DNA of 64,000 nt from an uncultured Clostridia bacterium (GTDB taxonomy: Bacteria; Bacillota; Dehalobacteriia; UBA4068; CALXSR01). The stretch covers positions 1 to 64,000 of the forward strand of contig CALXSR010000011.1 of assembly GCA_944391215.1 (NCBI GenBank), given 5' to 3'. Below, one piece after another: positions 4,253 to 27,668 of this stretch. Position numbers and translations under genes: made by a program. The stretch's first letter is position 1. Every line of letters begins with the position of its first letter. The notes under the pieces are model-generated. The model had not been told where the DNA came from and did no database searches. It saw nothing but the letters and a program-made list of their open reading frames with translations.

Positions 4253-6407
4253 TTACCCTGTCTGCTGCGATTCTAAAAACTGCATAATTTTTTCTTTCGC
4301 TAAAGGACGGGAAAAAGAAAAGCCTTGCGCAACATCGCGGTTAGCCGCTATTAAAAACTCTACTTGATGTTTTGCTTCCATCCCCTCCGAAACAATCGAT
4401 AAATGCAGAGATTTCGCTAAATAAATTGTATAAATAGCGATATTTTTACTTTTTTCATCATCTTCCAGCCCATCAAAAACGATTTATCCAATTTCAAATC
4501 CCGAATAAAGTGCTTGGTAAAAGGCAAGTCATTTAAAATGACGCTTTCCGTCATTTCAATTTCCAACAAGTCCCCTGGGATTTGGTATTTTCGCATGGTT
4601 TCGGTTATAAACTGTAACAAATCTGCCTGGTAAAGCTCAATACGCGAATGCAATCCTTTTTCCCGGAATTTTGTTAAATCACTGCAGACTTGCGTCCACA
4701 CCAAACGGCCAATTTCTACAATTAAGCCGCTTTTTTCCGCAACTGGAATAAAAGCAGATGGCAACATAAAACCTTTTCCGGATGTACCCAACGAATCAAC
4801 GCTTCAAAGCCAACCACATCATAATTTTGCAAAGCTACTTTTAGCTGATAATAAACCAAAAACTGCTTTTCGCGAATAGCAACTTTCATATCCTGTATCA
4901 TCTGGTTTTCTTCTGTTAATTGTTCTCGCATTTGCTCATTGAATACAGCTAAACAACCCTTATATTGCCCCTTTTTGACTATATAACGGGCAATATTAGC
5001 CCGATTAATCATATTGTTCATATCTAATTTTTCTTCTTTTTTTATCAAGTAAATACCCATTGATAAAGAAATATCAATATTCGTTTGTCCATCCGGCTTC
5101 ACATTTTTTAAGCATGCACAAACTTCCTCCGCCTTTTTGGTTACCTCACTAATTTCATGATGATAATCATATAAAACGCCAAAATAATCATTGGAAAGGC
5201 GGGCATAAATAGACTTTTCTCCAAAAACGCTACGCAAAACGGTAGCAACATAGCGTAACACATCATCGCAAAAGATATACCCAAAAGTATCATTAATTAA
5301 TTTAAAATTATCAATATCAAAATAATAAAGCGCACAACTTTTACTGCCCCCATTATGCAACTGTTTTTCACATGCCGTATAAAAGCTATGATAATTACCA
5401 ATTTGGGTTAGCGGATCAATAAAAGCCATATGGAATAACACTTGATCGTTCTTTTTTTTATTTTTGGTGATGAAGGCAATAATTACCAAAAATATAACAA
5501 TTAGAACCGTCACAAAAAGCAGCGTTTGTTGAATGATGCGGGCCGAACGGTTAAAAACTACCACAGAAGGCAACACCGCCAATAAACTCCAGTCATTTAC
5601 TCCACTTATTGAAGAGCAACCAATATAACTATCCCTATCATGGAAAGACAAACGTAACGTTTTTGTCTGATCTCCCAATAAAGCCCTCTGGAAAGTGTCT
5701 ATTTCCTCCGCTGTATTATATGGCGCCATCACATCAATCATATTTTTGCCAATTTCTTCTCGATTCGGTACAAAAATAATTAAACCATTGCTATCGACAA
5801 TATAAGAACTGCCCGTACCGTTAAAAAAGGAAATTTGCAATGCTTGCACCAAACTTGTCGATTCATTGGTAGCAAACAATACCGTTTGTGGTATCTCATC
5901 TTTAAACACCGGTACCGCATACACAACAATTTGCCGCTCGCTATCTGTTCTATCCCATATAGGCTGAGAAACGACACTAACACCTGTCATAGCAGCTTGG
6001 TAATAGTCTCTACCTCCCACATAAAAAGTATAGCAGTGGTATGCAACATTCCCTTCGCATTTACATAACCAATACGTAAATAATTCTCTCTTTCCACTTC
6101 CGGCGCCATGCGTTCAAGTTTTTGCCTAATTGTTAAGGAGTCGTCTTGAATCATAGGAGAATCCGATAATACTTCTAAAACTTTTATTTCTTTTGCAACA
6201 GGCTTTTGGCTAATTTAGCCCCTTGTTCCGCTACTTCGCCAATATGACTACCTATTTCTTCTTCTAATAAATAGTATTATTCACATAAAGAATGGCAAAA
6301 AGAACAAAAATAGTCAACAAAACTACAGATAACACAATATACTGTGGCAATTTGCTTTTATGGACAGAACTTTGCTCAGTAAAACTTTGATTTTGCCCAA
6401 ATTGCAT
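4253..6407 (-). pseudogene. Decayed membrane GGDEF-EAL (c-di-GMP turnover) gene
   Basis: The minus strand holds successive pieces of one protein in different frames. They are: an N-terminal membrane helix (PQYIVLSVVLLTIFVLFAIL); a dCache-like sensor (GGRDYYQAA); a second membrane segment; a GGDEF domain (LTQIGNYHSF start, degenerate active-site loop RLSNDYFGVLY); and an EAL domain broken over two frames (EALIRWVHPEK, then MLPSAFIPVAEKSG). The tail VSEGMEAKHQVEFLIAANR runs to TAA at 4253-4255 in a further frame. The EAL centre has lost the segment that normally carries DDFGTGYS. At least four frameshifts and one deletion make it non-functional. It is unrelated in position to the intact EAL gene at 25.2-26.5 kb. 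The start codon is approximate. Confidence 0.85.
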
Positions 6408-14828: not shown

Positions 14829-15103
14829 AAAAAAACTCTACAGCCAGCTTAAACTGATTGTAGAGACGAAACTTTTTTCGCGGTACCACTCTACTTCATG
14901 TAAATACATGCACTCATGGATACTTGAGTTACCCCGTTATATCCTGTCCTGATGACGGAGGACTTCCGGCCAAACTTATACAAATGGCTTTGCCATTTAT
15001 TCAGTCCGCAGCTCCAAGGCGAGTTCCCTGCTATGCGCCTACTGTCTCGCATCACCCGACAGCTTTCTGTAAGCCGCTACACAGCTACTATTCCTCTTCA
15101 TTG
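14829..15103 (-). ncRNA. T-box leader, leucine (CUC) specifier, with terminator
   Basis: Read on the minus strand, stem I runs from about 15095. It includes the distal-loop motif GGTGATGCGAGAC and a specifier region GGGAACTCGCCTTGGAG, where CTC at 15021-15023 reads as leucine. The near-invariant antiterminator sequence AGAGTGGTACCGCG is at 14879-14892. A competing terminator follows at 14829-14865: a 12-bp stem with one mismatch and one wobble, CTCTACA and TGTAGAG at its base, then seven T. Uncharged tRNA-Leu would allow read-through into the leuA-araC gene. A TATAAA about 20 bases upstream may be its -10 element. The specificity agrees with the enzyme. Confidence 0.93.
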
Positions 15104-15227
15104 CTTTTATTTTATTTATAGTAACATGGATTCCAAAAAACATCCAGTATTAAATTTAATCATTTTTATTGATATTTTTTAACATCACAATCACAGGCCG
15201 CCGCAAAAATAAAAAAATTTACAGCAG

Positions 15228-15290: not shown

Positions 15291-18200
15291 TTATTCATTG
15301 ATCATTTTACTAAAATTCAATAGCATTTGCGCTACTTCGGCGCGGGTAGCAGTACCAGTTGGGTTCAATAACCCTGCTTCATCTCCTTGCATAATACCTT
15401 TATCTGCCGCCCAAATAAGTGCTGTTTGCGCCCAATCGGCAGCAGCATTTCCATCGGTAAAGGAATCTATATTGCCGCTAGCTGTTGTATCATAAGCTTT
15501 ATAGGTTGCATAACGATACAAAATAGCAGCTAATTGTTCGCGGGTAATTGCATCGTTCGGGGCAAAAACACCTTCCCCATGCCCATTTACAATTGCTTTT
15601 TCTGCTGCCCAATTTACTGCCGCGCTATACCAAGCTTCCGCAGCAACATCATCAAACATATTGGTTGTTACAACCGGTTTACCTTCTAAATTATAAAGCA
15701 CTTGTACAAGCATACCGCGGGTTAAGGATTCATTTGGTTCAAACATGGTAGCGCTAACACCATTCATCAAACCATTTTCATAAACATAAGTAATGGCTTT
15801 GGTATACCAAGCATCTTCTACCAAATCGGTAAAAGGCAATTTTGCAGCTTCTTCTTCACTGATAAAGGTTGCTTTTACCGTAACGTCAGCATCCGGCATA
15901 GTAAATTCCCATTTATCTTCTGCTTTTTTGTTAGCGGATACCACATTGCCTTTTTCGTCCTTAACTGTTAATTCATCCAATACGAAACCGTCATTCGGGG
16001 TAATCGTAACCGTAATGATACTGTCTTCCGTGGCTTTATTTTGCGAAACGACTACTTGTCCATTTTCTGTATCCGCAACAGTAATTTCATAACGCGTGGT
16101 TACGGTACCACCACCACCGGAGCCAGTAGAGCCGGAAATTCTACGAGTTGTCACTTCCACTTCTACAATAATAGCCTCAGTACTGGGCGAATCATTGTCA
16201 CCATTCAAATCGCTGCTGGCTTTAACCAAGTATTTGGTATTAGCTTTCAAACCGCTAAAGGACAAATCTTTTCCGGTACCAACTGTCCAACCGGCAATTT
16301 TATTGGCACCTTGCGCATCATAAACAGCATAATACAAAGAAGCGTTAGAATCTTTTATCGTAATACTGGTAACAGAAGCAACAGCATTTACACTTACTAC
16401 TATCGGTGTCTCCGCATCCTCTGTGAAAACAGTTACCGTATCGCCATTTTTCGCGGCATCCACCGCGTCTTTTACAGTGGGATAATAAGAGTGTTTGCCA
16501 TCGCTGTTTACTTTGGCTTTGGCTTCCGTTTCGCTATCAATATAGGCATCTACATTACCAGCAAAGGTACCGCCGTTAATTGCAACATTGCTTTTTACGG
16601 TTTCAATCGTTTCTGCGACTTTATCTTCCGTAATAGTCTTATCAAGCTTTAATTCCCCATTGATATCGCCGCCGTTTACGGTTAATACGCTTTGATTATC
16701 GGCATAAGCATCTTGTCCCCAAAGGCCAAGTTCTACCGTACCATTGATGGTAGCACCGTCTTTTACGGTCACTCTAGCGCCATTCACATAGCTTGCCGCC
16801 CAGCAAACATCCATGGCAATTTCGCCATCCGCTCTGGCATAAATGGTGGTGCCTGCATTCAAAGCCGTTTCCCCATTATTATTGGATAAGGTATATTCCA
16901 CACCACCAGCATCATTGGTTAAACCGCGTCCATCCAAAGTAACCTCTTCTAAAGTGAGGTTAGAATAATTTTGAATTAAAATATATAATTTATCTGCTTG
17001 TCCATCAGCGGCAATGGTACCGTTTTTAAAAGTAACATTGCTATTTTTTAATAACTGAAAACCATTGGTTTCTGTTCCGCTGGAACCAACGCCTTCATTG
17101 ACCGTATAAGTATTGCCACCCAAATCAAAAATAATCTTTTTTCCTTCTTCCACAACTACCCCTTTGCCGGTCGCACTTTTTATTAAAGCAATCGTCGTTT
17201 CATCCGTTCCGGCAGCGTCTACGGCATCTTGTAAGGTAGTGTAGCCAACGGCGCCAATAACGGCAATAATGTCGGCAGTATTTTCAATCGGGTCCCCATC
17301 TGTCGTTTTACTATCGACATACTGTACATTGTCATTTCCCACATCGGCGCTACCCACGGTACTATTCAATACCATAGTATCACCACTTTCATTACCGGCC
17401 ACTGTTCCGCCAACACTGGCGTCTTTTACCATTAAAGCGCCGGTTCCAGCATTGGTCACATTTCCGCTAACGGTAGCACCTTCGCTAACGGTAGCGCTTC
17501 CAGCAGCAATTGTAACATTACCAGTTACATTTGCCTCCTTGCTAATAGTAATATTACTGTTAGCTGCTTCACTTCCGGAATTTTTAATTTCTATATCCCC
17601 AGTGAAGCTGCCGCCGCTTATTGTAATGGTGCCGGTACTTTTTTGCCCATTTTCCATGGTAGTAATGGCAGTTGCAGTCCCAGAAGCCGTAAATGTACCA
17701 CCTTTGATAGTTAATTCGCCTTTATCCATGGTATTATCGATTTGCCCGTTTAAAATAACCGATTGTACGCTGGCATCTTCTGCTAGGGTAAATTCACCAT
17801 CATTGATTTCTGTTACATTCCAATTTAAAACAGCGGCTTGCGTAATATTCTTAAACGTACCGTCATTAATAACCAGTTTTCCAAAGTCGTCATTTTTTAT
17901 GGTGTTCAAACCGCCGTCATAAACACCACCGTTAATGGTCAATTCGGACAATACTTTTCCCGTATTTTGATTGCCGTTTTGCCAGCCATTTTCAAACAAG
18001 CTAGAATGCGTTTCTTCCCAGGTAGTCATATATACACCGGCATTTGTTGCCATTGTACCATGGTTTAAAACCACATAACCATGACTTTCCTGTTTTTGAA
18101 AATGGCCGCCGTTGAGCGTAGCGGTCGCCCCAACTTCATTATAAACTGTTTGTTTTTCGGAAGCGGTATTGGTTACGCCACCTGTTTGCTCTTCTACTGC

Positions 18201-18521
18201 AACATCTTTTTCTTTTTCATTATTAATCGTCAGTGTCCCTTTATTATAAATGGTATGACTATTCGCCGCATTCGTTAATGTATAACCATTTAAATCAATG
18301 ATAACTTCTGCATCCTCTGCAATCGTTAAAGCGCCACTGCTTAAAGTGACATTGTCATTTAAAATATAGCTACCGGACGCTAATACAGAACTCTCAGCGT
18401 TAATTTCTATTGGAGTTGTGGCTGGTTCATCTTCAGCAAATGCCAAAACAGATAATGAAAATACCATGCATAACACCAATAAAAAAGCTAACAAGCTTTT
18501 CACTGTTTTTTTCAATTTCAT
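15291..18521 (-). CDS. Large secreted S-layer-homology protein with beta-helix passenger
   Basis: The start is set at the second of two ATGs (18521/18524), right after AGGAAAGAGG. It gives a signal peptide (KKTVKSLLAFLLVLCMVFSLSVLAFAE). The ~1076-residue protein has a long Gly/Thr/Asn-rich repeat region of right-handed beta-helix character (repeated NGGTF/INGGVY-like turns, ~40-680). A domain TENGQVVVSQNKATEDS...FTMPDADVTVKATF comes next, then three SLH domains (~900-1076; PFTDLVEDAWYTKAITY, MFDDVAAEAWYSAAVNWA, SFTDGNAAADWAQTALIWAADKGI). SLH domains bind pyruvylated cell-wall polymer, so it is a surface protein. It lies downstream of the invertible segment 18941-19259, with one small gene between, but also has a possible promoter of its own. 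Confidence 0.9.
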   Translation of the reverse strand: MKLKKTVKSLLAFLLVLCMVFSLSVLAFAEDEPATTPIEINAESSVLASGSYILNDNVTLSSGALTIAEDAEVIIDLNGYTLTNAANSHTIYNKGTLTINNEKEKDVAVEEQTGGVTNTASEKQTVYNEVGATATLNGGHFQKQESHGYVVLNHGTMATNAGVYMTTWEETHSSLFENGWQNGNQNTGKVLSELTINGGVYDGGLNTIKNDDFGKLVINDGTFKNITQAAVLNWNVTEINDGEFTLAEDASVQSVILNGQIDNTMDKGELTIKGGTFTASGTATAITTMENGQKSTGTITISGGSFTGDIEIKNSGSEAANSNITISKEANVTGNVTIAAGSATVSEGATVSGNVTNAGTGALMVKDASVGGTVAGNESGDTMVLNSTVGSADVGNDNVQYVDSKTTDGDPIENTADIIAVIGAVGYTTLQDAVDAAGTDETTIALIKSATGKGVVVEEGKKIIFDLGGNTYTVNEGVGSSGTETNGFQLLKNSNVTFKNGTIAADGQADKLYILIQNYSNLTLEEVTLDGRGLTNDAGGVEYTLSNNNGETALNAGTTIYARADGEIAMDVCWAASYVNGARVTVKDGATINGTVELGLWGQDAYADNQSVLTVNGGDINGELKLDKTITEDKVAETIETVKSNVAINGGTFAGNVDAYIDSETEAKAKVNSDGKHSYYPTVKDAVDAAKNGDTVTVFTEDAETPIVVSVNAVASVTSITIKDSNASLYYAVYDAQGANKIAGWTVGTGKDLSFSGLKANTKYLVKASSDLNGDNDSPSTEAIIVEVEVTTRRISGSTGSGGGGTVTTRYEITVADTENGQVVVSQNKATEDSIITVTITPNDGFVLDELTVKDEKGNVVSANKKAEDKWEFTMPDADVTVKATFISEEEAAKLPFTDLVEDAWYTKAITYVYENGLMNGVSATMFEPNESLTRGMLVQVLYNLEGKPVVTTNMFDDVAAEAWYSAAVNWAAEKAIVNGHGEGVFAPNDAITREQLAAILYRYATYKAYDTTASGNIDSFTDGNAAADWAQTALIWAADKGIMQGDEAGLLNPTGTATRAEVAQMLLNFSKMINE

Positions 18522-18555
18522 CATCCTCTTTCCTACAATTTCTACAAGTCCTCTT

Positions 18556-18584
18556 ATTATATCAAATATTTCTCCTAATTTCGA
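18556..18584 (-). promoter_or_regulatory. Possible own promoter of the SLH gene
   Basis: On the minus strand TCGAAA, 17 bases, TATAAT with an extended -10 (TGATATAAT), 35 bases before the chosen start. The -35 hexamer is weak. If active, the SLH protein would be only partly dependent on the upstream switch. Confidence 0.4.
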
Positions 18585-18628
18585 AAAAAATACCACCTCC
18601 GTTTCGTACAAATAATAAAACTTTCTGT

Positions 18629-18913
18629 TTATTCTATTGTGAAGCTATTTAACTTTTGTTTTTCTTTTTCATATAAAGCATCTAAAATCTTTCGTTTTGC
18701 TTCTTTCGGGGAAGTAAATAAAAAATGCTCTCCCAGTAAATAAGTAGCGGCTTCCTGCCATTGCCGCAAAGAATATAAGTTTGCATCCATTTGGCCCAAG
18801 CAACAGGCAATTAAGGAAGTAAAATCAGGATTGCGTAAATCAGAAAGATAAGAAAGCTGCGCTGCTGCCGCCATATCATCTAATAAACAACCTGTACAGG
18901 TAAAATGCACCAA
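18629..18913 (-). CDS. Small protein of unknown function next to invertible promoter
   Basis: I do not recognise this protein. The frame gives ~94 residues from TTG at 18913, chosen because GGAGG lies 8 bases upstream; an in-frame TTG at 18934 lacks a site. It is Cys-containing near the start (TCTGCLLDD), alpha-helical in appearance with many Leu/Ala, and ends in a charged stretch (KEAKRKILDALYEKEKQK). It has no signal peptide or membrane segment. The gene begins 28 bases beyond the left inverted repeat of the switch, so it is the first gene read from the switch promoter at 18997-19024, and the SLH gene follows after 107 bases. Confidence 0.6.
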   Translation of the reverse strand: MVHFTCTGCLLDDMAAAAQLSYLSDLRNPDFTSLIACCLGQMDANLYSLRQWQEAATYLLGEHFLFTSPKEAKRKILDALYEKEKQKLNSFTIE

Positions 18914-18940
18914 AATAGTTTCCTCCAATCCCAATAATAG

Positions 18941-18958
18941 GCATAATTGTTATTATGT
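18941..18958 (-). repeat. Switch 1 left inverted repeat
   Basis: GCATAATTGTTATTATGT, the exact reverse complement of 19201-19218. The core is partly palindromic, as expected for paired recombinase-binding arms. Confidence 0.85.
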
Positions 18959-18996
18959 CTAAATCTTAAAATTAATTAATGTATATACCTAAAAAA

Positions 18997-19024
18997 AGTA
19001 TAACATAATAGAAACTTTTTTCAA
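18997..19024 (-). promoter_or_regulatory. Promoter inside switch 1, facing the surface genes
   Basis: On the minus strand TTGAAA, 16 bases, TATACT with a TG one base before the -10 (TGTTATACT). Transcription would cross the left repeat and reach the small protein gene after about 80 bases. Confidence 0.7.
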
Positions 19025-19064
19025 TATTTTTTGTTGATTATGTTTTTTGCTAAGTGAGAAAAAG

Positions 19065-19098
19065 AAAAACCAATAAAATTATATTTTATTGGTTTTTT
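19065..19098. terminator. Bidirectional terminator in the middle of switch 1
   Basis: A perfect 15-bp stem AAAAACCAATAAAAT/ATTTTATTGGTTTTT with a 3-base loop gives T runs on both strands. It would insulate the switch promoter from the recombinase transcript in either orientation. Confidence 0.85.
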
Positions 19099-19200
19099 GT
19101 GATGCTTTTTCCCTTTATATTATTACGATTTTAACTGTTTGCCAAGTCCGAATACAATGAAAACAAAGGAAGCATTCGGAAAAAATCGATTTTTAACGGA

Positions 19201-19218
19201 ACATAATAACAATTATGC
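19201..19218 (+). repeat. Switch 1 inner right inverted repeat
   Basis: ACATAATAACAATTATGC, a perfect 18-base inverted partner of 18941-18958. It also forms a direct repeat with 19242-19259, 41 bases apart, so a deletion or an alternative inversion endpoint is possible. Confidence 0.85.
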
Positions 19219-19241
19219 ACCTGAAATTCATTTTTCCTGTA

Positions 19242-19259
19242 ACATAATAACAATTATGT
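19242..19259 (+). repeat. Switch 1 outer right inverted repeat
   Basis: ACATAATAACAATTATGT, 17 of 18 bases shared with the inner copy. The following CTAT also matches the flank of the left copy, making this the likelier ancestral partner. It lies 4 bases from the recombinase stop codon. Confidence 0.8.
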
Positions 19260-19263
19260 CTAT

Positions 19264-20118
19264 CTATACGACAAAGCCCAATCGTTCCAGTTTACGGCTA
19301 TAAGCTTCTCCGGTAGATAACACATAAATGCGGGTCGTTTCAATACTACTATGGCCTAAAACATCCGCTAATTCAGCAATATCATGGTCAAAAGCATAAA
19401 AGGTTTGGGCAAATAAATGTCTTAAATTATGCGGAAATACTTTAGATGGCTCTACCCCAGCAATGGCGCAGAGCTTTTTCATTTCTGCCCAAATGGTTTT
19501 ACGGCTTAAACAATTCCCTTTCTGTGTAATAAAAAGCGGACCATGCGCAATGTTTTGCCTTTGCGCATAACGTAATAATTTGCGACATAACTTATTTGGT
19601 AAAAAAATGGTCCGCGTTTTCCCTTTTAAAGTAATGATAGTTCTACCCGTTTTCACCGCTTCAAAGGTGATATATTGTACCTCCGAAACGCGAATTCCGG
19701 TACCACATATGGTCTGTAAAAGCAGTTGCAATCTTTCATCCCCTTTTTTCTGTGCTGCATTCACCAATAAAAAGAATTCTTCCTTGGTTAAATTACGATC
19801 TTTATCACGAAACAGCTGTCGTTGACACTTGAATTGTTTGACCCGACAATAAGAGGCGCCAATAAAATCCAAAAAGCTATTTACAGCAGCTATCATCGAA
19901 TTGATGGAAGAAATCTTATACCCCTGTTCTAATAATTCCGCCTTCCAGTTCTGCACAACTTCTTTCGAAACAATTTTCTCATCAGCCAAATAATTGTAAA
20001 AAGCAAACGCGTCCCGACGATATTTTTCTATTGTACTAGGGCTTTTTTCCTCTCGATATAAATTAGTGATAAAAAAATCGATCTGCTCTTTGCTGATGGT
20101 AGTAAAACTCTCTGTCAT
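19264..20118 (-). CDS. Tyrosine recombinase (DNA invertase) of switch 1
   Basis: The 284-residue product has a SAM-like N-terminal DNA-binding domain (~10-90) and the phage integrase catalytic domain. Visible catalytic residues are Arg in GTGIRVSEVQ, Lys in LKGKTRTIF, His-x-x-Arg in FPHNLRHLFA, His in LGHSSIETTRIY and the nucleophile Tyr of that motif. GAGGAGG lies 8-9 bases before the ATG. Its 3' end directly abuts the outer inverted repeat of switch 1, and it is paralogous to the recombinase at 26826-27668 along its whole length (shared NSMIAAVNSF/NSMLAALNSF, AEMKKLC/TEMKKLC, ERLGFVV/ERLGLVV). Such adjacency is typical of invertases that act locally. A XerC/D chromosome role is unlikely. 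Confidence 0.93.
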   Translation of the reverse strand: MTESFTTISKEQIDFFITNLYREEKSPSTIEKYRRDAFAFYNYLADEKIVSKEVVQNWKAELLEQGYKISSINSMIAAVNSFLDFIGASYCRVKQFKCQRQLFRDKDRNLTKEEFFLLVNAAQKKGDERLQLLLQTICGTGIRVSEVQYITFEAVKTGRTIITLKGKTRTIFLPNKLCRKLLRYAQRQNIAHGPLFITQKGNCLSRKTIWAEMKKLCAIAGVEPSKVFPHNLRHLFAQTFYAFDHDIAELADVLGHSSIETTRIYVLSTGEAYSRKLERLGFVV

Positions 20119-21461: not shown

Positions 21462-24400
21462 CTATTTGGCAATTTCATCTAAAAAGTTAAAAATCATCTG
21501 TGCTATTTCAGCTCGGGTGGCCACTTCATTCGGGTTGAGCAGATTATTTCCGTTTCCTTTTATTATTTGTGCATTTACTGCCCAATCCATGGCTTCCTGT
21601 GCCCAATCGGAAATTAACGCATAGTCTGCAAACTCACGTGCCGCCATTCCGCCTTGCGTTGTATCATACCCTTTTACCGTTGCATAACGATACAAAATCG
21701 CAGAGAATTGTTCCCTGGTAATGGCGTCTTCCGGCCCAAAGCTACCATCACCGTATCCTTCCACAATATGATTTGTTGCCGCCCAATTAACCGCATGAGT
21801 ATAATATTGATAAATAGGATCACCACTATCGATAAACATGGCTTCCCCGGATACAGTCGGTTCCCCTTCTAAACGATAAAGAATGGTGACCATCATACCA
21901 CGAGTCATAGTTCCCTGAGGGGCAAAGGAAGTATCGCTAATCCCTTTCATAAAACCATTAGCAATGACATAATCCAAAGCTTCATGATACCAAAGCGTTG
22001 TATCAATATCATAGAATTTTTCACTGGGACAATCATGCTCCTTAGAACTATCTTTTTGGAAGGAAACGGCAATTTCCACCTTAGAAGCAGGCATAACAAA
22101 AGAGTATTTGCTATCGTTTTCTTTCGTTAATAAAATTTCCTTTCCATTTTTGTCCGTTACCACAAGTTCCTCTAATAGGTATCCTTCGTTGGGAATAACT
22201 GTTATGATTACAGTACTGTCTTTTGTAGCATTTTTACTAGACACTGTTATACTGCCGTTTTTCATATCATCAGGTAATTCCACCGTATAAGTAGGCGTTG
22301 AGCTGCCACCTCCGGTATTCCGAGCCCATCGAGCAATTATCGTTACGCTTTTTCCACCTTCGGCAGAAGCAGTATATTCCGTTATTTTATTACCATCTAG
22401 TTCCCAACCAGAAAAACGATACCCGGAGCGAGTTGGGCTAGGTAAAGCAAATACTGCACCGTTTTCAACTCTCACAATATAACTTTCATCATCCGTATAT
22501 TGCAAAGTAACCGTATCTACTTTTGTATCATCTGTACCAAGCACAGTCACTTTACCACCGCTTCCAGCATCCTTTAAAGCTTCTTGTACGCTGGTATAAT
22601 AACTAAACGGAGCATCCGAGTTTTTGGCCGTACTGTACAACTCAGTATTCAAACTTTCAATCAAGTATTTTTCCGCTACTGAAGAGGAAAAATTACCACC
22701 GCTTACCACAGGCGTTCCGGTATTTGGAGCTCCCGTTACCGCCGCTACTGCAGCTGGGGCAATGAAAGTACCACCTTTAATTTCAGAGGTCGCCTTTTCA
22801 TTAATACCGCCGTCCCCATTGGTATTATCATTACCAATTAAAACAGCCGTTTTCGAAATCGATTGGAAAGTACCGCCGGTTACAATACATTTAGAAGCAG
22901 AATGTTCCCCGGCTACATATAAAGCATAATGCGAAGGATCGCTGCCATGCGTAGCACAGGCAACTGTTTGATAATATCCGCTTGTAACTTCTAACAAACC
23001 ACCGGAATTTGCCAAAGCCCCCTGTACCCCGGTCACTTGTACGGAACCTGGAGCGGATTCTGCAATTTTTAAATAGGCATTTTCATTATCCACCCCATTG
23101 CGAATGGTATAGCCCCATAAGCTATCACAACTACTGCAAGAAGTATTAGAAAAAGTCCCTCCACTAATCAACATATTGCCACCGTTCTCAATAGCGGGTG
23201 CACCATTATTTCGATAATTTCCGCCATAAATAGTTGTATCCGAACCAGCGGCCGTACGAATAATAGTAGGAGAATCCTCATAAACCCCACCTTTAAAAAT
23301 AGCCACACTATCAGCACGAACCCAAATGCCTACTGCATTAGAAGAACGTAAACTTTTAAAATTCCCATTATCAATGGTTAACGTGCCATAATTATCAATC
23401 AAACCAGCCGAATTTTGGGTGGCATTGGTTACATCAATCGTACCATTTCCGGTAATAGTTAAATCTCCATAATTAAGAATAGGCCGTCCAGAAAAATCTT
23501 CCGTAACAGTAATACTTTTCCCATTCATATCCAATCTAATGGTTTGTTCTTCGGCCACAGTCACAATATCCGCGGTACTCAATTCTATATTAGCCAATAA
23601 CTTCACTGTGCCTTTTGTTCCGGCAGCTGTTATTGCCTCCATCAAACTGGCATATTTTTTATCCCCAACCACTTCCGCTGCAACTTTTTCTACTATAGCT
23701 TCGTTTTCTGCCGATTTAGAAATTGAATAACCGCTTATATCGCTGGTAAAATAAGCAGAAGGATCTTTTTCAACCATATGAGTTTCCCAATCGTCAGTAA
23801 AAGCCCCCGTATTGGGATCGCTTTCCGTCGAATATAAAGATATCCCAATAGCAAATCCTTCCGTTAAAGCACCGTCTAAAGTGACGGTTGACCAGAATAA
23901 ATGCAAATTGTTTTCTATCCCTTTAGCCGTATTTCCAGTAACAATCGGATTCCCGTGCAATAAAAAGTTCGGCCTATCATCCGGTAGGCCATAACTGACA
24001 TTGCCCAAAATACCGCCGCCATTTGCTCCTTCCGCTTTATTATCAGTAATACTACCACCGTATAATTTTAAAATACCGGTATTAAAAATACCACCGCCGC
24101 TTCCTTGGTCGCCAAGCGCTTCATTTTGGGTAATACTGCCATCTTCTAAAACAAAAACACCCTTATCCTGAATAGCAACACCACCACCTTGCTTACCCTT
24201 GTTACCACGAATCTCACCGTCATGCATATAAAAGGTACCATCCGACATCATAATGCCGCCAGCGCTATTGAGGGAAGACGAAGTATTCACGTTTCCGGCA
24301 ATTTCACCACCATACATATGGAATATACCCGCGCCTGCATACCCCTGTCCACTCGTATCAGCAGAATCATTAAAATAAATACCACCAGAAAAAGATTTAC

Positions 24401-25055
24401 CGGTATTTTCTGCAATACGGCCTTCATATAAATTGAATACACCATTGCTTAAATATACACCGCCAGTATAGTTACCGGAATTATTAGCTATAGAACCGCC
24501 ATACATGTTAAATGTTCCGCTATTAAATAAGGAAACAGCCCCACTCCAACACTTATCCGCCTGATTATTGGCAATTGTACCGCCATAAAGGTTTACATTA
24601 GCATTTTGCACATAAATACTACCAGACCGGCCGCCATCAGCAGCAGCGCTACTGGTAATCATACCGTCTTTTTCTATAGAGCAATCACAAATATTTATTG
24701 TGCCACCAGTCAATACAATAGGTGCAATACTAACCCCTTTACCCGTTAAAGTATGACCATTTAAACAAATATTAGTATCAGCAGAAATCCAAATTTCTTG
24801 GCTTATATCCACATCATCAGTCAAATAATAATTACCGCTGATTCCTAGTCTCGAAGGATTACTATTTAAATCTACAAAATCAGCTTCTTTGGCTACTGGG
24901 GTATAAGTAACAGCCGTAGTATGTATTGTACCTTCGTGGGTACATTCCGCTTCTCCGCAAACAAAATGCGTATGTGGCTCTTCGGCCATAGCTGCTAGCG
25001 GAAATACCATGATCATAATGACTGCTATCAATAAAAGTAACACTCTTTTTTTCAT
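21462..25055 (-). CDS. Second large S-layer-homology protein with beta-helix passenger
   Basis: The start is ATG 25055 (MKKRVLLLL), preceded by GAGGAG; the longer frame would begin at TTG. The ~1197-residue protein has a signal peptide ending near AAMAEE. A right-handed beta-helix follows, with regular GGTIANN/GGSIANN/GGEIAGN-type coils (~130-400) and more NGGTF-like coils to ~790. Then come a Listeria-Bacteroides repeat (RSGYRFSGWELDGN...IIARW), a domain MKNGSITVSSKNATKDS...SFVMPASKVEIAVSF and three SLH domains ending at the C-terminus. The last ~300 residues match the layout of the 15291-18521 protein, so the pair shares an anchor but differs in passenger. The protein would sit on the cell surface; adhesion is plausible but not shown. 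Confidence 0.9.
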   Translation of the reverse strand: MKKRVLLLLIAVIMIMVFPLAAMAEEPHTHFVCGEAECTHEGTIHTTAVTYTPVAKEADFVDLNSNPSRLGISGNYYLTDDVDISQEIWISADTNICLNGHTLTGKGVSIAPIVLTGGTINICDCSIEKDGMITSSAAADGGRSGSIYVQNANVNLYGGTIANNQADKCWSGAVSLFNSGTFNMYGGSIANNSGNYTGGVYLSNGVFNLYEGRIAENTGKSFSGGIYFNDSADTSGQGYAGAGIFHMYGGEIAGNVNTSSSLNSAGGIMMSDGTFYMHDGEIRGNKGKQGGGVAIQDKGVFVLEDGSITQNEALGDQGSGGGIFNTGILKLYGGSITDNKAEGANGGGILGNVSYGLPDDRPNFLLHGNPIVTGNTAKGIENNLHLFWSTVTLDGALTEGFAIGISLYSTESDPNTGAFTDDWETHMVEKDPSAYFTSDISGYSISKSAENEAIVEKVAAEVVGDKKYASLMEAITAAGTKGTVKLLANIELSTADIVTVAEEQTIRLDMNGKSITVTEDFSGRPILNYGDLTITGNGTIDVTNATQNSAGLIDNYGTLTIDNGNFKSLRSSNAVGIWVRADSVAIFKGGVYEDSPTIIRTAAGSDTTIYGGNYRNNGAPAIENGGNMLISGGTFSNTSCSSCDSLWGYTIRNGVDNENAYLKIAESAPGSVQVTGVQGALANSGGLLEVTSGYYQTVACATHGSDPSHYALYVAGEHSASKCIVTGGTFQSISKTAVLIGNDNTNGDGGINEKATSEIKGGTFIAPAAVAAVTGAPNTGTPVVSGGNFSSSVAEKYLIESLNTELYSTAKNSDAPFSYYTSVQEALKDAGSGGKVTVLGTDDTKVDTVTLQYTDDESYIVRVENGAVFALPSPTRSGYRFSGWELDGNKITEYTASAEGGKSVTIIARWARNTGGGSSTPTYTVELPDDMKNGSITVSSKNATKDSTVIITVIPNEGYLLEELVVTDKNGKEILLTKENDSKYSFVMPASKVEIAVSFQKDSSKEHDCPSEKFYDIDTTLWYHEALDYVIANGFMKGISDTSFAPQGTMTRGMMVTILYRLEGEPTVSGEAMFIDSGDPIYQYYTHAVNWAATNHIVEGYGDGSFGPEDAITREQFSAILYRYATVKGYDTTQGGMAAREFADYALISDWAQEAMDWAVNAQIIKGNGNNLLNPNEVATRAEIAQMIFNFLDEIAK

Positions 25056-25164
25056 ACACAATTCTCCTCAATTAGAATTCATCCATAATAAAGAATATTC
25101 ATACGCAAAAGCAATTTTATCATATCATTGACAAAATCAAAAGTCTGCTTTTACGCTGTTCCTT

Positions 25165-26460
25165 TCACCTCCCACCTAAAACAGGATAAGGTAGAGAATA
25201 ACAGCCATGCATTTTTTGGTAGTTTTCATAAAACATGTCCGGTGGAATCGCCGGAGAAAAATAAAAACCCTGCGCTTGATTACAGCCATAACTGGCCAAC
25301 ATCTGGCATTGTTCCGCTGTTTCCACCCCTTCGCCAATCACCTCTATCCCTAAGCATTGGGCAATTTGGATCAGTTTCGGTAACAAAATTTCATTTTTTT
25401 CTTTTATTGCTTTTTCTTCTGTTAAAAAGCCCTTGTCTAATTTTACAATGTCAAAATCTAACTGTTGCCAAATCGTAATGCCCGTATAACCAGCGCCATA
25501 ATCGTCAATCGACACCGCATAGCCATAAGAGCGCAATTGATCCACCAAAACCTTACATCCTGCAAACTCTGTTAATAAAATGGTTTCGGTCAATTCAAAT
25601 TCTAAAAACATCGGTGGAATTTGATATGACTGCACAATTGCATGCAATCGTTTAGCGGCATCTCTTTCCTTAATATGTAAACGAGAAAGATTTACCGATG
25701 TTTTCACTACCGGCAATCCCTTTTTGATTCGTTCCGACAAATAAGAACAAACCCCTTCTAAAATAAAATAATCCAGTTCTAAAATAGAGCCGTTTTGCTC
25801 CATAATAGATAAAAAAGAATCCGGATAAATCACGTTACCGTCTATGCCAACTCTTCTGGCTAAGGCTTCAGCCCCAACAATTTGTCCGCTTGTTAAATCT
25901 ATTTTTGGCTGCAAATAAAATAAGAATCTTTTTTCATGTAATGCCAAAGAAGTTTCCCGTTCCAAACGCTGTCTTTCCTGCAAATCCTCAATCATCTGTT
26001 CTGTAAAAATAACTGCGTTACTAATATTTTTTTTATGTGCTTCCTTCCTGGCCAAAGCGGCGTTATCAATTGCTTCTAATATGTTATTACTAAATATTGG
26101 ACAAATACCACAACAAAGTTTTAAGTTACAGGCAGGATATTTTGCTTGTTGTTCTGCTAAAAAACGATTGGCATAAAACTCATAAGAGGAAACAATTTCC
26201 TCATCGGTACGCGGTTCCTTAGTTAGAACGAGAAAAATAACTTGATCCGAAAAGATACGTTGCCCCAATACTATTTCCGGAATACTTTTTGAAAGATTTT
26301 CCAACGCAGATAGCAAGGCATTCCCTTTTTCGATTCCATAAAAGCGATTTACAAGTTTAAAATCAATAAAGTCAATCTCCAGGAAAAATGCAGTTCTAGT
26401 ACCAATGCAGGATTTTGCAATTTGAGTAGCCTTCTCGATAAACTTTTTATGACTTAACAT
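25165..26460 (-). CDS. EAL-domain c-di-GMP phosphodiesterase with degenerate GGDEF domain
   Basis: The 431-residue cytosolic product has an N-terminal GGDEF-like fold without the catalytic GG(D/E)EF loop (~20-165). A complete EAL domain follows (~175-420): GAEALARR for the EAL motif, TSVNLSRL, FELTETILL, SIDDYGAGYTG, DIVKLDKGFL and IGEGVETAEQ carry the metal and catalytic residues. It should hydrolyse c-di-GMP to pGpG, lowering the signal. No sensor or membrane part is present. The ribosome site is AGGGG 12 bases upstream. The nearest promoter is the one inside the invertible segment starting 71 bases upstream, so expression is probably phase-variable. Confidence 0.92.
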   Translation of the reverse strand: MLSHKKFIEKATQIAKSCIGTRTAFFLEIDFIDFKLVNRFYGIEKGNALLSALENLSKSIPEIVLGQRIFSDQVIFLVLTKEPRTDEEIVSSYEFYANRFLAEQQAKYPACNLKLCCGICPIFSNNILEAIDNAALARKEAHKKNISNAVIFTEQMIEDLQERQRLERETSLALHEKRFLFYLQPKIDLTSGQIVGAEALARRVGIDGNVIYPDSFLSIMEQNGSILELDYFILEGVCSYLSERIKKGLPVVKTSVNLSRLHIKERDAAKRLHAIVQSYQIPPMFLEFELTETILLTEFAGCKVLVDQLRSYGYAVSIDDYGAGYTGITIWQQLDFDIVKLDKGFLTEEKAIKEKNEILLPKLIQIAQCLGIEVIGEGVETAEQCQMLASYGCNQAQGFYFSPAIPPDMFYENYQKMHGCYSLPYPVLGGR

Positions 26461-26530
26461 AAAAACAAACCCCTATTTTTTTCTATTCATTCTTTTTATA
26501 TTTTGGCCAAAAGCGATATTTCTATGTTTC

Positions 26531-26561
26531 ACTACAAAATGTTTGTTTTGTAGTGAAACTA
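26531..26561 (+). repeat. Switch 2 left inverted repeat
   Basis: A 31-base perfect inverted copy of 26796-26826. The flank GTTTC at 26526-26530 extends the internal palindrome to 14-bp arms on this side (26526-26559), so the EAL transcript leader can fold a strong hairpin here. Confidence 0.92.
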
Positions 26562-26610
26562 TTATATATTTCTATCATTTCAATTATAATAAAGAAACTT
26601 CTTTTTAATT

Positions 26611-26639
26611 ATTATACTCTTGAACTTGCCTTCTTTCAA
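26611..26639 (-). promoter_or_regulatory. Promoter inside switch 2, facing the EAL gene
   Basis: On the minus strand TTGAAA, 17 bases, TATAAT, close to the sigma-A consensus, about 150 bases before the EAL start. Confidence 0.8.
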
Positions 26640-26669
26640 GCCATTACAATTCAACAGTATAGCAAATAA

Positions 26670-26695
26670 GCCGGCATATCATTATTTTTGCCAGC
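26670..26695. terminator. Hairpin behind the switch 2 promoter (possible terminator)
   Basis: A 7-bp stem GCCGGCA/TGCCAGC (one wobble) with a 12-base loop lies at the position that the strong bidirectional terminator has in switch 1. It is followed on the plus strand by an interrupted T-rich run. Weaker than a standard terminator. Confidence 0.4.
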
Positions 26696-26795
26696 CTTGT
26701 TTCGTGTTTCTTTTTTTCCCTATGTACGATACTATTTTAAGTTGATTTTTGTTTTATTGTATTTAAATTTTGTTTTTTTTCTTTTTTTTTGCATG

Positions 26796-26826
26796 TAGTT
26801 TCACTACAAAACAAACATTTTGTAGT
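26796..26826 (-). repeat. Switch 2 right inverted repeat
   Basis: The partner of 26531-26561. Base 26826 is also the last base of the recombinase TAA stop. Confidence 0.92.
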
Positions 26827-27668
26827 TATACGACTAAACCCAAGCGTTCTACTTGGCGCATATGGGCGATGCTGCTTTCCATTACATAAATACGTGTTGT
26901 TTGAATACTGGCATGACCCAATAGATCGGCCAGTTTTACAATATCTTTTTCTAAATTATAAAAGCTAATTGCAAACAAATGGCGAAAGTTATGCGGAAAT
27001 ACTTTATTAGCGTCTACCCCAGCGCTGCTACATAGCTTTTTCATTTCAGTCCAAATATTAGAGCGGTTCATCGGCCTCCCGTTTTTAGTAATAAATATCG
27101 ATCCAGTTACAATATGATTGCTTTGACAATAGTTTTTTAAATCATAGCATAACCTTTTTGGTAATAAAATATTGCGCCTTTTGCCTTTGCAACTTACCCA
27201 GGCTTGTCCTTTTTTTACCGCTTCCACAGTAATATGCTGTAGTTCAGAAATACGGATACCGGTTGTACAAAGGGTTTCCATAATAAAAAATAGTCGACGG
27301 TTTCCCTTGTTTTTAGCGGTTTCCAATAAACGCAAATATTCGTCTTTTGATAATTCCTTTTCCTGATCTCTAAAGATACATCTCTGTTGTTTAAACGGCT
27401 TAACCCGATATTCAGGAAGTCCTAAAAAAACAAAAAAGCTGTTCAATGCCGCTAACATAGAATTTGCTGTGCTAACCGCATATTGATTCCCTAAGTATTC
27501 TTTATAGCGGATCACTATTTCCTTATCCAATTCTTTTACAGCTGGCAAAAATGCCCAAAAAAAGCCAATATCACGCATATATTTAGCAATCGTTCCAGTG
27601 CTTCTTTCTGCTAAAAGTAAATGCTTTTCATAGCTTTGAATTTGTTCCATCGTTAATATATGGCACAT
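26826..27668 (-). CDS. Tyrosine recombinase (DNA invertase) of switch 2
   Basis: The 280-residue product has an N-terminal SAM-like domain (~8-85) and a catalytic domain. It shows Arg in TTGIRISELQ, Lys in SCKGKRRNIL, His-x-x-Arg in FPHNFRHLFA, and His plus nucleophile Tyr in LGHASIQTTRIYV. AGGAGGG precedes ATG 27668. It is a paralogue of the 19264-20118 protein, and each gene ends against its own repeat. The two repeat families have unrelated sequences, so each enzyme probably serves its own switch. The role is inversion of the adjacent promoter segment controlling the EAL gene. Confidence 0.93.
   Translation of the reverse strand: MCHILTMEQIQSYEKHLLLAERSTGTIAKYMRDIGFFWAFLPAVKELDKEIVIRYKEYLGNQYAVSTANSMLAALNSFFVFLGLPEYRVKPFKQQRCIFRDQEKELSKDEYLRLLETAKNKGNRRLFFIMETLCTTGIRISELQHITVEAVKKGQAWVSCKGKRRNILLPKRLCYDLKNYCQSNHIVTGSIFITKNGRPMNRSNIWTEMKKLCSSAGVDANKVFPHNFRHLFAISFYNLEKDIVKLADLLGHASIQTTRIYVMESSIAHMRQVERLGLVV

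Follow-up and report, generated by a model that had tools for sequence, protein, structure and literature searches.

In a window of 64,000 nt from an uncultured Clostridia bacterium (the whole stretch of DNA analysed here), a tyrosine recombinase gene and a gene for an EAL-domain protein are separated by a short stretch bounded by inverted repeats. Does this arrangement constitute a promoter switch and, if so, what would it turn on and off? We consider it very probable that the EAL locus is a self-contained phase-variation cassette, in which the recombinase flips the adjacent promoter segment and the sequenced orientation is ON. By this mechanism, the recombinase would recombine the two inverted sites flanking the 234-nt segment (Table 1). 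In the ON orientation the sigma-A promoter would drive the EAL gene and probably also the S-layer-type gene behind it, while in the other orientation it would aim back into the recombinase gene, leaving the unit OFF or weakly read through.

Table 1. Features of the two recombinase modules in the window, and members of an associated small-protein family.
Feature	Position	Strand	Remark
Tyrosine recombinase, 280 aa, candidate dedicated invertase	26826..27668	-	Pfam Phage_integrase E=3e-28
Recombinase-proximal recombination site (right arm)	26796..26831	.	Family core ACAAAAT-GTTT-GTTTTGT
Invertible segment (putative), 234 nt	26562..26795	.
Predicted sigma-A promoter TTGAAA-17-TATAAT, toward EAL gene (ON orientation)	26611..26639	-
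Target-proximal recombination site (left arm), inverted copy	26526..26561	.
Degenerate-GGDEF + EAL protein, 431 aa, predicted c-di-GMP phosphodiesterase	25165..26460	-	Pfam EAL E=4e-55; GGDEF below cut-off
SLH-domain surface protein (S-layer-type), 1199 aa, probable second gene of switched unit	21462..25061	-	SLH 1.6e-29
Second-module tyrosine recombinase	19264..20118	-	49% identical to first
Second-module outer recombinase-side site (third copy)	19242..19263	.
Second-module inner recombinase-side site	19201..19218	.
Second-module distal site	18937..18958	.
Second-module first gene, 101-aa protein	18629..18934	-	Undescribed YLSDL-type family
Second-module target, SLH-domain surface protein	15291..18611	-
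YLSDL-type family members	window 18629-18934; L069:9240-9524; L123:4060-4344; L059:9178-9417

Repeats, promoter and recombinase at the EAL locus

A sequence-only reading of the window had described perfect 31-base inverted repeats around 234 bases, and both lengths were recovered (26531-26561 / 26796-26826). The pair can be extended to 36 nt at 94% (26526-26561 / 26796-26831), and the chance expectation for perfect 31-nt pairs lying within 1 kb, given a 64-kb window of the local composition, is approximately 5e-10. Each repeat arm contains a palindromic site, ACTACAAAA-TGTTTG-TTTTGTAGT, in which 9-base arms surround a 6-base centre, as that reading had also stated. The asymmetry of each arm is confined to the centre (TGTTTG/CAAACA) and the two copies are mutually inverted, which orients the site pair for inversion rather than deletion. 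No copy of the repeat was found elsewhere in the genome or in viral contigs, and thus a second orientation of the EAL locus was not found.

The segment is short, intergenic and flanked by inverted repeats, and in one orientation its internal promoter is aimed at the flanking gene. This promoter, previously described as a single strong sigma-A-type match directed at the EAL gene, consists of TTGAAA (26639-26634) and TATAAT (26616-26611) on the minus strand, separated by 17 nt and agreeing by sequence match with 11/12 consensus positions. It is the sole strong match within the segment, the best opposite-strand candidate being clearly weaker, and stops 49 nt short of the repeat ahead of it, on the EAL-gene side. 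The sequence-only reading had named a fixed promoter directly before the EAL gene as evidence against switching; the 65 nt from the distal repeat to the EAL ATG contained none above the shuffled level (best score 10.3 vs a median best of 11.6 in shuffled segments). No clear terminator was found between the recombinase and the EAL gene, and recombinase read-through could express the latter in either orientation.

The stop codon of the recombinase gene reaches as far as 26826, which is, as had been noted, the last base of the outer end of the perfect repeat arm, and inverting the segment in silico leaves the 3' coding end of the gene unaltered. The protein has the R-K-H-R-H-Y catalytic residues and an N-terminal SAM-like domain, with R139, H226xxR229, H252 and Y261 invariant in a 14-member alignment. 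Its best models are XerA and XerD, both scoring under their curated equivalog cut-offs (135.6 vs 220 and 118 vs 330, respectively). On these scores and its context, a Xer role in chromosome resolution was rejected.

A family of recombinases and its site rule

Related recombinases were gathered from relatives as well as from named genomes of gut Clostridia and Holdemania, yielding 85 with enough downstream DNA, or 82 once duplicates were removed. In 80/85 of these (77/82 of the non-redundant set), the recombinase gene is followed by an inverted-repeat pair that scores 14-31 and starts no more than 120 nt from the 3' end of the gene. Scores in the controls reached at most 11 in shuffled sequence and 13 on the upstream side, and all but one of the 23 distant tyrosine recombinases scored 11 or less. 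The family site has the core ACAWAAT-nnnn-ATTWTGT (7-4-7). When site pairs were located by their arms alone, with the centre left out of the search, the 4-nt asymmetric centre proved identical and inverted in 70/70 pairs, against an expectation of about 0.3. From locus to locus the centre varies, with 51 types and 1% cross-identity. A centre that is identical within a pair and private between loci is expected if strand exchange requires overlap identity, and such locus-private centres would keep sister modules from cross-reacting. Nine genomes reached via named loci each held 1 to 10 recombinase matches at E <= 1e-40, and at least one match at 1e-90 was present in 109 of 401 genomes of one family. 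Insulating terminators were unsupported as a family rule, an either-strand terminator occurring in 10/54 segments.

Strong promoters (score >= 13) were detected in 75% of family segments vs 5% of shuffles. Among segments with one dominant direction, the distance between the promoter and the repeat ahead of it is 15-60 nt in 91% of cases, vs 22% in shuffles. Where direction was callable, the promoter pointed toward the neighbouring gene (ON) in 12 modules and toward the recombinase (OFF) in 42. The segments of L062, L089 and L099 carry strong promoters both ways, so that inversion would exchange promoters rather than silence the target.

Two modules of one genome, L044 and L046, have co-linear flanks (recombinases 82% and targets 84% identical), with segments that match at 66% when inverted vs 48%, the chance level, when direct. 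Likewise, the segments of L086 and L080, both ON, run opposite to those of L119, L095, L100 and L066, all OFF, between co-linear flanks; for L086 and L119, the segment agrees at 59% inverted vs 46% direct, the recombinase at 75% and the TetR-like target at 61%. The occurrence of homologous modules in both orientations strongly supports the view, drawn from these alignments, that segments of the family do flip. A further pair, L042 and L043, was considered as two orientations of one locus and rejected, the two being redundant contigs in the same orientation. For the EAL locus, we infer inversion by the adjacent enzyme. The recombinase-linked invertible promoter originally proposed there is supported by the anatomy of the locus, by the same layout in its relatives, by the identical-centre rule, and by inverted homologues between co-linear flanks.

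The window itself holds a second module (18937-20118). Its outer and distal sites form a matching pair accompanied by an extra copy, such that the recombinase side has a tandem of two copies, with a single inverted one past the promoter. The segment carries a strong promoter, TTGAAA-16-TATACT, directed at the 101-aa gene and the SLH surface protein. A third site is found in 11-12 of 77 family modules (one being a doubtful 4-mismatch match), on either side of the segment, and its position showed no correlation with promoter direction. The two SLH proteins of the window are related across their C-terminal 436 residues (34%). The genome contains no further close recombinase paralog, the other two recombinase matches being 27-29% identical. 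In four modules, the gene that comes first after the inverton encodes a small YLSDL-type protein (80-101 aa, motif YLSDL...W.A..Y..G); three of these were tested against Pfam and the window copy against NCBIfam, with no match in either. On the minus strand, a T-box leader occupies 14859-15110 of the window (Rfam RF00230, 118.6 bits).

The probable switched unit and alternative explanations

The motifs EALAR, NLS, ELTE, DDYG, KLD, EGVE and Q of the EAL protein were aligned to solved EAL enzymes, and these are the motifs of active members of that class. The protein is thereby predicted to be a phosphodiesterase, destroying c-di-GMP. The SLH gene begins 103 nt past the EAL gene on the same strand, and the switch may therefore drive both; within the end of the EAL gene there is a weak hairpin resembling a terminator. 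Judging from this layout, the controlled unit is probably the EAL gene plus the downstream S-layer-type gene rather than the EAL gene alone. The two would then be co-transcribed, and the switch may affect c-di-GMP, for which the sequence-only reading had predicted heterogeneous levels in a population. Elsewhere, the genome encodes about ten GGDEF domains and two further EAL domains in open frames. No PilZ was found, and a search for c-di-GMP-I riboswitches carries no weight, the control genomes likewise having given no match. A GGDEF-EAL gene at 4290-6020 of the window (minus strand) is apparently decaying, its EAL half broken by several stops and frame changes. Many more SLH-domain proteins are encoded in the source genome beyond the two switched loci (contigs C16, C13, C46, C2 and C23).

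Across the family, long proteins that are secreted or on the surface predominate among the first targets, with Flg_new/InlB-type repeats, LRR, SLH or SpaA domains; 35/74 were both long and secreted according to a crude signal test. Others include TetR and BTAD regulators, capsule genes, a chemotaxis receptor and, in genome G030, a flagellar rod/FliE operon. In this last case (L039, contig C39, 850-2588), a family recombinase and inverton stand directly before the operon, an arrangement that makes a phase-variable flagellum probable. None of 61 other first targets scanned had EAL among the top families listed, and a motif search returned EAL at this locus only. Given the size of the module family and the second copy in the window, it is the EAL target that is unusual, not the device.

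This distribution raises the prospect that the main consequence of the switch is a change of S-layer-type surface protein, with the EAL gene an inserted first gene tuning c-di-GMP alongside the surface change. We regard this as evenly balanced. The nearest related module (G030, recombinase 65%) has the same layout with an SLH protein directly behind the segment and EAL absent, the second window module likewise ends in an SLH protein, and a search of the order covering 34 other genomes gave no EAL ortholog, the best match being 32%. The EAL gene is, however, the first gene and the nearest to the promoter, and the SLH gene may possess a fixed promoter of its own: a strict scan found no minus-strand promoter in the EAL-SLH gap, but a lone extended -10-like TGATAAAAT was spotted there by eye.

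Two further explanations dispense with present-day inversion. The repeats might act as operators or hairpins regulating the recombinase or a leader RNA, and each arm is indeed palindromic and folds into a hairpin in the predicted leader. We consider this extremely improbable, as it leaves unexplained both the asymmetric centres, which match only as within-locus inverted pairs, and the inverted homologous segments between co-linear flanks. It also seems highly improbable that the element could flip in the past but has since become locked ON in the source lineage. The ON orientation alone was seen, in a single assembly, yet the 31-nt arms are still perfect and the recombinase motifs intact. Returning to the phase-variation cassette, its widest formulation is of a widespread, modular gut-Clostridia device (recombinase, own promoter segment and private 4-base centre) fronting surface, flagellar, capsule and regulator genes, and here a second-messenger gene. 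In the source lineage, the phosphodiesterase and the S-layer protein would be switched together as a unit, which would couple c-di-GMP with the identity of the surface. Whether this full formulation holds could, in our estimation, fall either way.

Significance and relation to known systems

The family rule (an inverted pair directly behind the recombinase, a 7-4-7 core, an identical and private centre, and a promoter set 15-60 nt back from the repeat toward which it points) should make such switches callable from assemblies, and predicts no cross-reaction between sister modules of one genome. The EAL locus would extend phase-variable c-di-GMP degradation past Clostridioides difficile, into a gut-type lineage of uncultured Clostridia in which a candidate invertase adjoins the switch.

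In the E. coli fim switch, the tyrosine recombinase genes for FimB/FimE lie beside an invertible promoter segment. The recombinase described here is, unlike FimB/FimE, Xer-like with a full N-terminal domain. RecV of C. difficile controls the cwpV, flg and cmr switches, acting on several distant sites (PMC5903667). The likeness lies in the control of surface or signalling genes through inversion by a tyrosine recombinase; in contrast to RecV, each locus here comes with a recombinase of its own and with a private centre.

Inverton group 139, which is almost entirely from Clostridia, was linked in a survey of a defined gut community to the neighbouring tyrosine recombinase group 35, with reads in both orientations that changed with culture and surface attachment (PMC11892184). 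The resemblance extends to a tyrosine recombinase beside the inverton, and the quoted examples have 14-26 nt arms and segments ~205-227 nt long (PMC11892184). Based on this layout, invertase group 35 and inverton group 139 probably belong to the same family as our recombinase. In 401 genomes of one family, we found no match at the published coordinates of the flipping example from Intestinimonas.

The closest functional parallels are C. difficile pdcB (Cdi2) and pdcC (Cdi3), degenerate-GGDEF/EAL phosphodiesterases behind invertible segments that control their expression (PMC9286219, PMC5903667). For pdcC, a promoter start site was seen in one orientation only; for pdcB, the recombinase was reported as unidentified, with no recombinase gene beside the switch (PMC9286219, PMC5903667). 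The sequence-only reading had already noted phase-variable promoters upstream of c-di-GMP genes in C. difficile, with the locus, the repeat sequence and the local invertase as differences. As at those loci, an invertible segment would lie upstream of a degenerate-GGDEF, conserved-EAL protein; unlike at pdcB, the recombinase gene abuts the segment and an S-layer-type gene comes after EAL. Phase-variable EAL phosphodiesterases and recombinase-linked Clostridia invertons are thus already published, and the features that probably distinguish the present locus are its dedicated invertase and its probable EAL-SLH unit.
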